From assembly GCA_029212785.1 (NCBI GenBank), contig JARGOG010000033.1:1-48668 (forward strand): a DNA stretch of 48,668 bases. Direction: 5' to 3'. Positions 11,295 through 14,107 of the stretch are shown here, one piece after another. A program made the translations under genes and the position numbers. This stretch comes from Thalassobaculaceae bacterium. Its GTDB lineage: Bacteria; Pseudomonadota; Alphaproteobacteria; Thalassobaculales; Thalassobaculaceae. The notes beneath the pieces were generated by a model. It had not been told where the DNA came from, searched no databases, and saw only the letters and a list, made by a program, of their open reading frames with translations. How positions within the stretch are numbered: position 1 is the first letter of the stretch; each line of letters begins with the position of its first letter.

Positions 11295-12038
11295 CTAGCC
11301 CGTTGCCGCGTCGACCGCGTCCCACAGCGCCCGATAGGCCCCGGCGGCGGCCGTCCGCGGGGCGAAGGCGGTCAGTGGCGCGCGTTCCACGCCCATGCGC
11401 TCGACGGCACTGGCATAAGGGATGGTCACACCCAGGGTATTCTTGTGACTCTTGGGGAAGCTCTCGATGATCTCCCGATGCAGGGCCTTGCGGCGGTCGA
11501 CCATGGAGAAGAACGCCAGCAGCTTCAGCCCCTTGATCTTCTGCTCACCCTTGAACGCCTCGAGCTGGTCGTAGGTGCGCAGGGACAGCGTGGTCGGGAT
11601 CAGCGGGATGATCAGCGCGTCGGCGGCCTCGAACACCGCCTCGGAGACCAGGGAGACGCTCGGCGGGCAGTCGAGCAGAATGATGTCGTACTCGTCGCCC
11701 AGCGGCTTCAGCAGCTTGCGCAGCCGACGGGTCGATTTCTTTTCGGCCTCCAGCAGCAGGTCGAGATTGCGGAAGCTGAAATCGGCCGGGATCAGGTCCA
11801 GGTTCTCATGGTCGGTGGCCTTGATCAGGCCATCCAGATCCCGCTTGCCACTGACCAGGCCCTTGCCGCCGCCCTTCACCTTGGTCTTCACCCGGAAATA
11901 GAAGCTGGCGGCACCCTGCGGGTCGAGATCGATGACCAGCACCCGATGGCCGCGTTGGGCCGCCACATGGGCCAGGTTCACCGCCGCCGCCGTCTTACCC
12001 ACGCCACCCTTGATATTGTAGCTCGCCAGGATCCGCAT
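11295..12038 (-). CDS. Orphan ParA/MinD-type ATPase
   Basis: A 247-residue P-loop ATPase of the ParA/McdA class. It has the deviant Walker A KGGVGKT (residues 10-16) with its signature lysine, the A' motif DLDPQGAAS, and Walker B IILLDCPPS, so it should dimerise on ATP and bind DNA non-specifically. No parB, chromosomal partition genes or parS-like repeats are nearby, so it probably positions some other cargo. Its ATG overlaps the stop of the CHAD gene (TGATG), and a very good ribosome site AAGGAGG (12049-12043) lies at the end of that gene, indicating coupled and efficient translation. The partnership with a polyphosphate-binding CHAD protein suggests polyphosphate granule positioning (inference). 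Confidence 0.9.
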   Translation of the reverse strand: MRILASYNIKGGVGKTAAAVNLAHVAAQRGHRVLVIDLDPQGAASFYFRVKTKVKGGGKGLVSGKRDLDGLIKATDHENLDLIPADFSFRNLDLLLEAEKKSTRRLRKLLKPLGDEYDIILLDCPPSVSLVSEAVFEAADALIIPLIPTTLSLRTYDQLEAFKGEQKIKGLKLLAFFSMVDRRKALHREIIESFPKSHKNTLGVTIPYASAVERMGVERAPLTAFAPRTAAAGAYRALWDAVDAATG

Positions 12039-13648
12039 CAGTCCTCCTTGGGGCCGCGGGCCGGTGTCTTGCCCGTGGTGGTCGTGCTGCCATGGCGCGG
12101 GTCGCCCCGGCCATTAAAAATGCCATGGAACAGCGCCTGCGTCTCCTTGGCGGCGAAGGTTTCGAACGCCTCGGCGAACTCGGCACGGGCGGCCCGGCGG
12201 TCGCGCTCCAGCTCCTCGCTCCAGGCGCCGATGGCCATCAGCGCCTCGGCGGTGTCGCCCTTTCCGGATGCAAGCGCCCGTCCGTAGCCGTGCAGAGCCT
12301 CGACCTGGACCTCGCGGTCCTGCACCCGGCCGAGTACGTCCTGCAGGCCCTTGAGCGCCCTGATCGCCGGCTTCGTCGTCTCCCGCGGCAGAACCTCGCC
12401 GAGGAACTCGGTGACATAGCGCAGCTTCTTCATGCGCTTGCGCAGGTCGTGCAGCATCTCGGCTTCGCTGTCCGGTCCGATCCGGCGGCCGTCGCGCAGT
12501 GCCTTGCGCAGCAGGTTTTGCCCACGGCTCGATACCACCTCGGTGAAGGGCGCACGCAGCGACGCGGTCGCCGTCCAGTTCGCGCTCGACGGGCTCAGGC
12601 TGTCGCGCCAGCGTGCGACCAGAGACTGGAACCGGGTGCCGGAAAGTTCGAGCGCCAGATCGCGGTGGGCGGCTGTCTTCAGGGCGAGCAGATGACGTTC
12701 CAGCGTGTCGAGCGCGGCCGGGTCGTCATCCGACCTGGCACGGCGTCCGGCGAGATCCAGGAGTTGGACGTCGAGATCGCGCAGTGGGCTGGTGACCCGA
12801 CCGAGCCAGCGGAACCCGTCGATCGCGTCGGCCCGACCCTCCAGTGCGATCGCCTGGGAAAGCTGCGAAAGGGCGGAGCGGCTGCGTCGGATGGCGACGC
12901 GGAACTGGTGCAGGTAGTCCGGATGCCGGTCGGCCAGCACCCCGGACAGCCGGTCCTCGAGCACGTCGAGCTGGGCCGACAGGATTTCCCGCATGGCCGG
13001 GCCGGCCGGGTCGTCGGGACGCAGGTCGGCGCCGATTCTTCCCGGAACGGACACGATCGCGGGTTGGATCCGCGCGATGGCCGATACGTCCGTGGCCGGC
13101 CAAGCCAGGTCATGCTCGAAGGTGGCGCGGACCCGGCGTGCGTCGGCCTCGTAGCCCTTCAGCGCACGTGTTTCGACGTCAACGGCACGGTCGCCGTCGG
13201 GCGCCGTCGCCAGCGTCACGACGATGCGGCAGCGGATTTTACCTTCGGCGTCACGCAGGGCGGTGACCGTCTCTCGCACCTGCAACTCGGCAACCGGATG
13301 CAGGGCCCGGCCACGGCTCAACGCTTCGAGATGACGGCGCAGGGGGCCCATCGGCAGTTCGTTGTCGAAGGCCGGTGCCGGGCTTGGGACCTCCGCCGAT
13401 GCGAGCGCCGTCCCGCTGAGCGTGGCGAGGCTCCACGTCTCCCGATCGCCGCCGGCGGGAAAGCTGGCAAGTCGGTGGCCGCCGCGGGTGAGCCGATAGT
13501 TGGCGCTGTCGCGCAGGGTCAGCGGATAGGTGCGCACTTCTGCCGGATCCGCGCTCAGTGATCCGCGCACGGCATTGATCGCGGCCGTCAGGTCGTGTTC
13601 GGATTCCGGCCAGCCTACGGGCGGTATGAAGGCGCAAGGAGAGGTCAT
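12038..13648 (-). CDS. CHAD domain protein with degenerate N-terminal CYTH domain
   Basis: A 536-residue protein. The C-terminal part (about residues 230-500) is a CHAD domain: helical, with conserved His/Arg patches such as YLHQFRVAIRRSRSAL and MLHDLRKRMKKLRYVTEFL. CHAD domains bind inorganic polyphosphate, and CHAD proteins are known to coat polyphosphate granules. The N-terminal third resembles a worn CYTH triphosphate-tunnel domain (LRRHLEALSRGRALHPVAEL, then the LRDAEG turn), but the ExExK motif is not visible, so catalysis is doubtful. The start at 13648 is preferred over the frame start at 13717 because it leaves 17 bp after the upstream stop instead of a 52-bp overlap; the ribosome site is weak. 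Middle gene of a three-gene operon with the orphan ParA. Confidence 0.85.
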   Translation of the reverse strand: MTSPCAFIPPVGWPESEHDLTAAINAVRGSLSADPAEVRTYPLTLRDSANYRLTRGGHRLASFPAGGDRETWSLATLSGTALASAEVPSPAPAFDNELPMGPLRRHLEALSRGRALHPVAELQVRETVTALRDAEGKIRCRIVVTLATAPDGDRAVDVETRALKGYEADARRVRATFEHDLAWPATDVSAIARIQPAIVSVPGRIGADLRPDDPAGPAMREILSAQLDVLEDRLSGVLADRHPDYLHQFRVAIRRSRSALSQLSQAIALEGRADAIDGFRWLGRVTSPLRDLDVQLLDLAGRRARSDDDPAALDTLERHLLALKTAAHRDLALELSGTRFQSLVARWRDSLSPSSANWTATASLRAPFTEVVSSRGQNLLRKALRDGRRIGPDSEAEMLHDLRKRMKKLRYVTEFLGEVLPRETTKPAIRALKGLQDVLGRVQDREVQVEALHGYGRALASGKGDTAEALMAIGAWSEELERDRRAARAEFAEAFETFAAKETQALFHGIFNGRGDPRHGSTTTTGKTPARGPKED

Positions 13649-13665
13649 CAGCAAAATGGTGCCGC

Positions 13666-14037
13666 TTATGCCGCGACCGAGGAAGAGCCGCCGTGCGAAA
13701 GCACCGCGCGCATCCAATGGCCGATCCTGGCGAAAACGGTTTCCGGTCGAGCCCTGTCGTCGTCATGCCGGGAGAGCCATCGCAACTTCTGCTCAATCCG
13801 GCGGGCGCGTGCGGGTTCGAGCAGGCGGGTGGCGAGTATGGCCGCGATCAGGTCACGCTGAAGTAGCTGACTCGCTCGATCCTGCGGTGGCGTGCCCGCG
13901 CACCGCAGTCGGCGCTCGATCCCGGCGAGACGGCGCTCCAACTCGCGCAGCGGCATCAGAGGACGGAACCGCAGCCGGTTCGCCGCCACAAGTCGCAGAG
14001 TCGGGCGACACTTCGTCTGATTGTCATTGTCGCTCAT
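13666..14037 (-). CDS. Small arginine-rich protein of unknown function, first gene of the CHAD-ParA operon
   Basis: A 123-residue, very basic protein that I do not recognise. It is rich in Arg and Leu, with predicted helical stretches (LRELERRLAGIERRL, residues 40-54; ARRIEQKLRWL) that could form coiled-coil or nucleic-acid/polyanion-binding helices; there is no signal peptide or membrane segment. The start at 14037 is supported by the ribosome site GGAGGA just upstream and by a promoter with TAAATC at 14060-14055, which gives a leader of about 11 nt. The frame could be read from 14067, but that start would lie upstream of the predicted transcript. It precedes the CHAD gene by 17 bp and probably functions with CHAD and ParA; an adaptor role is inference. 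Confidence 0.7.
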   Translation of the reverse strand: MSDNDNQTKCRPTLRLVAANRLRFRPLMPLRELERRLAGIERRLRCAGTPPQDRASQLLQRDLIAAILATRLLEPARARRIEQKLRWLSRHDDDRARPETVFARIGHWMRAVLSHGGSSSVAA

Positions 14038-14054
14038 GCTTTCCTCCATCGCTC

Positions 14055-14083
14055 GATTTAAGCGCACAAAGTGCGCATTTCAA
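14055..14083 (-). promoter_or_regulatory. Promoter of the CHAD-ParA operon with an operator dyad in its spacer
   Basis: Minus strand: -35 TTGAAA (14083-14078), a 17-bp spacer and -10 TAAATC (14060-14055), with predicted initiation near 14048 and the ATG at 14037. The spacer is filled by the perfect dyad GCGCAC-AAA-GTGCGC (14062-14076), which makes this a very likely operator. Confidence 0.7.
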
Positions 14084-14107
14084 GCAGGATCTGCGCACCC
14101 CGTGCGC
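14062..14107. promoter_or_regulatory. Twin dyad operator (two copies of GCGCAC-N3-GTGCGC)
   Basis: GCGCAC-AAA-GTGCGC at 14062-14076 and GCGCAC-CCC-GTGCGC at 14093-14107. The arms are identical, the 3-nt centres differ, and the centres are 31 bp apart, about three helical turns, so two dimers would bind the same face. The sites lie between the CHAD-ParA operon and the sterol desaturase gene and could control both. The cognate regulator is not identifiable from the window. Confidence 0.75.

Follow-up and report, generated by a model that had tools for sequence, protein, structure and literature searches.

ParA/MinD ATPases position cargos by way of partner proteins, many of them encoded close by (PMC10241942), and McdA positions carboxysomes (PMC13052382); these papers, like those below, are cited for the portions of their text that were available. 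Spacing or inheritance of polyphosphate (polyP) granules is known from several bacteria. A 2025 review, as far as its available text goes, lists AlgP as the only polyP-granule factor, with the ATP dependence marked as unknown, and describes the granule-positioning proteins of Caulobacter as not identified (PMC13052382). In Acidithiobacillus, the gene order folD-ppk-parA-CHAD was reported as conserved (PMC10892726). Its ParA was described there as a protein for plasmid or chromosome partition, and granule positioning is not proposed in the available text of the two papers concerned (PMC10892726, PMC6416229). Here, we analyze a stretch of 48,668 nucleotides (the window) from a Thalassobaculaceae bacterium (contig JARGOG010000033.1 of assembly GCA_029212785.1), in which positions 11295 to 14107 hold minus-strand genes for a small Arg-rich protein, a CHAD protein, and a ParA-type ATPase. 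A preliminary description of this locus held that no system of such composition was known; the Acidithiobacillus report precedes it in the gene arrangement, and the claim has to be narrowed accordingly. By analogy with ParA/McdA systems, the ATPase may position polyP granules with the CHAD protein as the cargo adaptor, a reading to which we assign a probability of about 0.6.

The open reading frames of the window place the small gene first, the CHAD gene second, and the ParA gene last in the direction of the minus strand. The ParA gene (11295..12038) encodes a product of 247 amino acids (aa) (MRILASYNIKGGVGKT), whose Pfam matches are to AAA_31 (E = 2.4e-36) and CbiA. The motif set of the ParA/MinD family, namely a deviant Walker A of the form KGGxGK(T/S) and the A' and B motifs, is present. 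The Walker A sequence KGGVGKT lies near the N terminus, with no space for an N-terminal DNA-binding domain, and K10-T16, D37/D39, and the DCPPS segment are invariant in an alignment of 10 sequences including that of the window. The solved structures closest to this protein (P0001) are ParA, Soj, McdA, and MinD, with the McdA chains 6noo/6non at E values of about 9e-12. Its top NCBIfam matches were partition models, all under their cut-offs, and no listed NCBIfam model exceeded its cut-off for any of the three proteins. The stop codon of the CHAD gene overlaps the ParA start in TGATG, which is preceded by the ribosome-binding site AAGGAGG (12043..12049, minus strand, read from the sequence) within the 3' end of the CHAD gene, and 17 bp separate the end of the small gene from the CHAD ATG. 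The preliminary description had given the ATPase its type from KGGVGKT and had noted both the coupling and the 17-bp spacing; translation and Pfam confirm the former, and the sequence confirms the latter.

The CHAD gene (12038..13648, minus strand) was assigned by translation, Pfam, and fold, and its product has 536 aa from the ATG or 559 aa if a TTG start is used. PF05235 matched residues 222-452 (E = 1.2e-47; 163.2 bits against a curated cut-off of 25.6). The protein is composed of an N-terminal CYTH/TTM-like domain (residues ~9-204) and a long CHAD domain (~215-512). Its closest solved relative, which is also the top Foldseek match, is CtCHAD, including the polyP complex 6qva (E about 1e-67). 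Mutation of H253, R256, R260, R296, R418, and Y419 in CtCHAD lowered polyP binding (PMC6537752). These six central contact residues correspond to H247, R250, R254, R290, R410, and Y411 of the window protein, and all six are invariant in the 11 aligned CHAD sequences. Of the patch residues of CtCHAD, K389 is replaced by Arg, K390, R438, and K441 are kept, and R385 and K386 are not kept. On this residue conservation, polyP binding is a well-supported prediction for the CHAD part. A C-terminal extension of the protein was dropped as a ParA-specific feature because CtCHAD has the same region.

PF01928 (CYTH) gave no match to the CHAD protein at E <= 1 in Pfam. In profile comparison, its N-terminal half matched those of conventional CYTH-CHAD proteins (43 rows; hhalign 95%, E = 2e-8). 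Residues 9-201 of the predicted model (mean pLDDT 60.9, 3 sequences) matched AtTTM3 (5a68) with a Z score of 11.5 and a root mean square deviation of 4.2 over 172 aligned residues. When Foldseek was run with the predicted fold, thiamine triphosphatases/TTM structures matched this half, and the CYTH-CHAD layout was like that of YgiF (5a60). The N-terminal half thus adopts the CYTH/TTM tunnel-barrel fold in a predicted model of modest confidence, and the label "CYTH-like" of the preliminary description is borne out by the profile match and by the fold prediction, though PF01928 is silent and the ExExK motif is absent. ExExK is required for CYTH catalysis. It was found in none of 17 ParA-linked proteins as compared with 40 of 43 other N-terminal halves (shuffled expectation, 0.4 and 2.5), one rule being applied to both sets and skipping 1 linked and 13 background rows without a long N-terminal half or a motif anchor. 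The CYTH half lacking ExExK is probably a non-catalytic binding module.

The pairing of CHAD with ParA is conserved. This ParA is present at E <= 1e-30 in nine of 36 genomes of the family, that of the window included, and a CHAD ortholog lies directly upstream in all nine. In the eight others, identity to the window proteins is 71-94% for ParA and 41-68% for CHAD, and ParA is the more constrained partner because its identities exceed those of CHAD. Two single-contig genomes of 1.5 Mb (G023 and G024), placed in one genus with genomes of 4.7-5.6 Mb, matched none of the three genes; they may be reduced symbionts or misplaced. A class sample of 387 genomes yielded two further ParAs at E <= 1e-45; they come from two other families, and each has a CHAD gene directly upstream. 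When a phylum sample of 397 genomes was searched with a profile, 61 genomes contained the ParA subfamily at E <= 1e-45. A CHAD gene is located directly upstream on the same strand at 18 of 72 ParA loci. The preliminary description had proposed a search of alphaproteobacterial genomes for conserved adjacency; the pairing reaches eight families (f1, f19, f90, f108, f164, f188, f190, and f222) in more than one class, plus six Paracoccus plasmid records, and is not confined to close relatives. The distance from the CHAD stop to the ParA match is -4 to +20 nucleotides at 17 of the 18 loci, and the ParA of the eighteenth is frameshifted (L044, 10885-11629, possibly an assembly error). PPK1 family members are present in 17 of the 18 CHAD-ParA genomes, a proportion given without a comparison base rate.

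In the ParA tree, CHAD-linked rows occupy several deep branches, and their distribution takes 5 changes, whereas shuffling gives 16.2 on average (none of 500 shuffles as low). From this pattern, the pairing is either old and was lost on several occasions or was gained several times. The CHAD tree, built from 80 domains, places L147 and all 18 linked CHADs in one clade (100/100) together with 3 non-linked rows, and 58 rows lie outside; 4 changes are needed, against an average of 17.3 after shuffling (none of 500 shuffles as low). L147 counts as one of the 19 "adjacent" rows of this tree, though it stands beside a ParA remnant only: ParA is reduced to fragments (L147, 3097-3342) directly downstream of a pair-type CHAD. 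The tree was extended with CHADs from genomes with unlinked ParA; from 20 retrieved loci, those scoring at least 60 for CHAD (9) entered (6 scored lower and 5 had no match), and 13 background rows were dropped. Four of the new CHADs lie inside the clade (1 from f182 and 3 from f186) and 5 outside, as do L200, L201, and L202, which are labeled noParA in this tree although their genomes carry unlinked ParA. ParA is present for 23 of the 26 rows of the linked CHAD subfamily, with the remnant counted. The linked subfamily is therefore seldom seen without this ParA; the converse fails, as many ParA genomes have another CHAD or none. Synteny by itself is not interaction, and the locus could represent a conserved neighborhood without shared function. 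Such an account is made highly improbable by three observations: adjacent pairs occur in several deep branches of the ParA tree and in differing surroundings, the genes overlap or nearly overlap, and a single CHAD subfamily is involved. Weak ParA-like matches (19-23 bits) were also seen near CHAD at L143, L191, and L197. At L143 (4499-4831), the ParA/MinD-like match lies within 200 bp after a CHAD of another subfamily, possibly an independent CHAD/ParA-like pairing.

Genes related to phosphate are found around several of the pairs. A free-standing CYTH gene lies convergently beside ParA at L078, L138, and L139 with ExExK intact (EIERKF); direct profile comparison of the N-terminal domain of the CHAD protein with three free-standing CYTH proteins gave no match. 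A SixA-like phosphatase gene follows at L077 (70.5 bits, below the cut-off of 74.5). In the six Paracoccus plasmid records, CHAD is directly before ParA by coordinates. A small open reading frame, CHAD, ParA, and CYTH were present in all four regions viewed, and NUDIX was annotated in three, a count resting on an incomplete plasmid gene table. In one of the four, on Paracoccus marcusii pCP157_03, the operon is located downstream of pstC-pstA-pstB-phoU-phoB, with small hypothetical genes between. Such polyP and phosphate genes as neighbors would also suit an ATPase whose role in polyP metabolism is that of an ATP-driven switch or chaperone, coupling CHAD to PPK, CYTH, NUDIX, or phosphate signaling without any positioning. 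In the available text of the respective papers, CHAD raises the polyphosphatase activity of YgiF (PMC6537752), and the ppk neighborhood of Acidithiobacillus is read as metabolic by its authors (PMC6416229). The nearest relatives of the ATPase by sequence are, however, ParA, Soj, and McdA, and its CHAD partner lacks ExExK, so that we regard a metabolic switch as unlikely. At L110 (3106-4797), an AAA_21 ATPase gene and an RloB-like gene, which we take to be a defense-type pair, lie directly upstream of CHAD-ParA.

The cargo might also be another one, such as a polyhydroxyalkanoate (PHA) granule, a signaling complex, or a chromosome region, with CHAD as a regulator reading the polyP state. Most ParA relatives have no CHAD neighbor, one plasmid relative is located near phbB, and a CYTH-CHAD protein of Acidithiobacillus is treated as an adenylate cyclase in the text available (PMC6416229). 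We consider a different cargo rather improbable, since CHAD adjacency recurs across the eight families, several with phosphate-linked neighbors, and PHA synthase and phasin are absent among the CHAD-ParA neighbor proteins scanned or listed.

Membership of the ParA family and the location of the Paracoccus copies on plasmids raise the possibility that this ParA segregates a chromosome or plasmid. The Paracoccus operons are preceded by a small protein of 62-67 aa that is ribbon-helix-helix (RHH)-like; the RHH matches are sub-threshold, and ParG was matched in two of three (PF09274, E = 0.0033, below cut-off). A ParB/RepB/Spo0J-family gene is present ~69 kb away on pCP157_03 (the stretch 100001-124905 was left out), and this plasmid carries its own repABC elsewhere. 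In the window, the 16 proteins between 1.8 and 22.6 kb were scanned with Pfam; none is a ParB, in agreement with the preliminary description, and hence no ParB adjoins ParA there as in a ParABS system. The single ParB_N match of the genome is on another contig (C83), adjoining its own ParA. Because of the lack of an adjacent ParB, the separate parAB, and the repABC of the Paracoccus plasmid, partition of a plasmid or chromosome is very improbable; the preliminary description had named replicon segregation by this ParA as an outcome that would overturn granule positioning, and the separate parAB and the plasmid repABC weaken that objection.

Here, we propose a mechanism for polyP-granule positioning that builds on computed features of the locus, namely its composition, coupling, and conservation, the ParA-linked CHAD subfamily, the polyP-contact residues, the loss of ExExK, and the phosphate-related neighbors. 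The CHAD protein would bind polyP chains at the granule surface via its conserved basic pore, and the N-terminal CYTH domain without ExExK would serve as a binding or scaffold part, not as an enzyme. The ATP form of ParA would coat the nucleoid. Granule-bound CHAD may contact ParA, either alone or together with the small basic protein in Thalassobaculaceae or the RHH-like protein in Paracoccus, and this contact would stimulate ParA to hydrolyze ATP, upon which it would be released locally. As a result of the local release, the granules would move up the ParA gradient, spread, and be shared between daughter cells, behaving like carboxysomes under McdA/McdB. We infer the CHAD-ParA contact, the stimulation of the ATPase, the nucleoid binding, and the granule positioning by analogy. 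As the pair recurs in distant bacteria, it may serve the positioning and sharing of phosphate stores in some of them. The fuller picture, a dedicated granule partition system of ParA and an ExExK-less CHAD adaptor with exchangeable small DNA-binding or adaptor proteins (Arg-rich in Thalassobaculum relatives, RHH/ParG-like in Paracoccus), ties to phosphate genes, a tandem-operator regulon, and actively controlled inheritance, has in our estimate slightly less than an even chance of being correct as a whole.

Several points weigh against granule positioning. The strongest is that 54 of the 72 ParA loci have no adjacent CHAD; in the phylum sample alone, an adjacent CHAD is found in 8 of the 61 ParA-positive genomes. 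A ParA clade of 28 rows has no CHAD neighbors, and beside ParA its loci instead have a TruA gene (24 loci) and an RnfH-like gene (23 loci), one each being confirmed by Pfam. No CHAD was detected at E <= 0.001 in 11 of 71 ParA-positive genomes, at least 8 genomes with unlinked ParA have CHADs outside the linked subfamily, and G753 holds the pair with no PPK1 match. In favor of granule positioning, CHAD occurs anywhere in the genome in 50 of the 61 ParA-positive versus 160 of the 336 ParA-negative genomes of the phylum sample, a comparison in which the Fisher test ignores relatedness and both phylum listings are assumed to have drawn the same 397 genomes. The position of L100, on a long branch, is unsure in both trees. 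The 60 background CHAD loci were hand-picked with known pairs omitted, and so they provide no unbiased adjacency rate. A basic C-terminal tail of CHAD was rejected as a ParA-stimulating peptide, the tail charge not separating the groups (Mann-Whitney p = 0.057). Finally, no experiments on any member were found in the literature searched, which comprised open-licence papers with preprints excluded. The loci of the 28-row clade are of gammaproteobacterial type (L089-L117 and L131), with ParA mostly divergent from the RnfH-like gene and truA.

The small gene (13666..14037, minus strand) encodes a protein of 123 aa by translation (P0003), with 23 Arg and 2 Lys and a computed isoelectric point of 11.6. 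Its low-confidence model is mostly helical with disordered ends, and the sequence has no credible Pfam match and no RHH match at E <= 1. Homologues are present in eight of the nine family loci: six were found by BLAST, the window included, and those of L040 and L041 by a six-sequence profile searched against all frames (E = 3e-14 and 6e-13). The exception, L038, has neither the small gene nor the operator pair described below. Profile search found no homologue at the nine other CHAD-ParA loci of the phylum. A role for the small gene as a general component was accordingly rejected, and from the three-gene unit of the preliminary description the CHAD-ParA pairing is retained as conserved, with the small Arg-rich gene found in a single family. 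Inspection by eye, the sole comparison made, showed no resemblance between the Paracoccus small proteins and that of the window.

Upstream of the small gene, two perfect palindromes form a tandem pair 31 bp apart. The first (GCGCAC-AAA-GTGCGC, 14062..14076) lies between a -35-like hexamer, TTGAAA (14078..14083, minus strand), and a weak -10-like hexamer, TTAAAT (14056..14061, minus strand, read from the sequence), and the second (GCGCAC-CCC-GTGCGC, 14093..14107) closes the locus at 14107, the end that the preliminary description had also drawn. At the place of the -35-like hexamer, eight loci have TTGAAA (five), TTGAGA (two), or ATGATA (one). A promoter scan called no promoter on the minus strand; the single promoter assumed earlier is plausible from the readable hexamers and was not recovered by the scan. 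The palindrome pair is kept in eight of the nine family loci at a spacing of 31-32 bp, one of the copies carrying a single mismatch at most. Because the gene-proximal palindrome lies just downstream of the -35-like hexamer, the pair is suggested to be an operator acting in repression.

The exact pattern GCGCAC-N3-GTGCGC occurs five times in the genome of the window (two here, two on C43, and one on C111), with none for a reversed-pattern control. Across the nine family genomes, the pattern has 39 sites and the control 8. Chance may account for single sites elsewhere, because the control reaches 8 overall and equals the sites in one genome (G029, 2 and 2). The other sites of the own genome (G000) are at C43:37053-37089 (L241) and C111:5944 (L242), and a PPK1 match on C43 (69121-69648) lies ~32 kb from the second tandem pair. 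Genes beside the sites include those for a TPR protein (own genome and relatives), an XRE-type regulator (in G014, G015, and G028, not seen in the own genome), and, in relatives, a small protein of roughly 90-107 aa, several of which adjoin a hybrid histidine kinase and a response regulator. In the own genome, the same hybrid kinase has a site pair. A small regulon with tandem palindromes is thus possible in Thalassobaculum relatives, with the XRE gene as a candidate for the regulator of the operator. No link to PHA was found among the genes near the sites. A second ParA/VirC1-like ATPase gene (L249, 2701-3420) is close to an operator site in G014.

In the literature searched, no proposal that a ParA positions polyP granules was recognized. 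Within the same scope, the following are new: how widely the pairing extends, the CHAD subfamily tied to this ParA, the loss of ExExK, the occurrence next to Pho genes in Paracoccus, the small partners that differ between lineages, and the tandem operator upstream. If granule positioning by CHAD-ParA is correct, the question of how polyP granules are positioned would gain named, testable genes in sequenced organisms (Thalassobaculum litoreum and Paracoccus), and a storage polymer would join the cargos of ParA ATPases.

The locus shares single features with several known systems. Acidithiobacillus folD-ppk-parA-CHAD likewise has CHAD beside parA, together with ppk; its ParA is glossed as a partition protein in the text available, and the likeness drawn here is between gene arrangements. 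The Paracoccus version, in which a small RHH-like protein precedes CHAD-ParA, recalls the ParF-ParG plasmid partition system, from which it differs in the intervening CHAD gene; the small protein of the window differs further in having no RHH match at E <= 1. Among CHAD phosins, the window protein shares the long CHAD domain and the central polyP-contact residues with CtCHAD and the CYTH-CHAD layout with YgiF, but its CYTH half is devoid of ExExK and its gene is coupled to parA. The AlgP system of Pseudomonas aeruginosa evenly spaces polyP granules in the nucleoid region, and AlgP, unlike the proteins considered here, is a histone H1-like DNA-binding protein (PMC9239181, available text). Among the 16 scanned window proteins, Pfam revealed no McdB or carboxysome genes. 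As in McdA/McdB, the gene for a small ParA-type ATPase adjoins that of a cargo-binding partner, predicted in the present case, and the partner is a CYTH-CHAD polyP binder instead of McdB.

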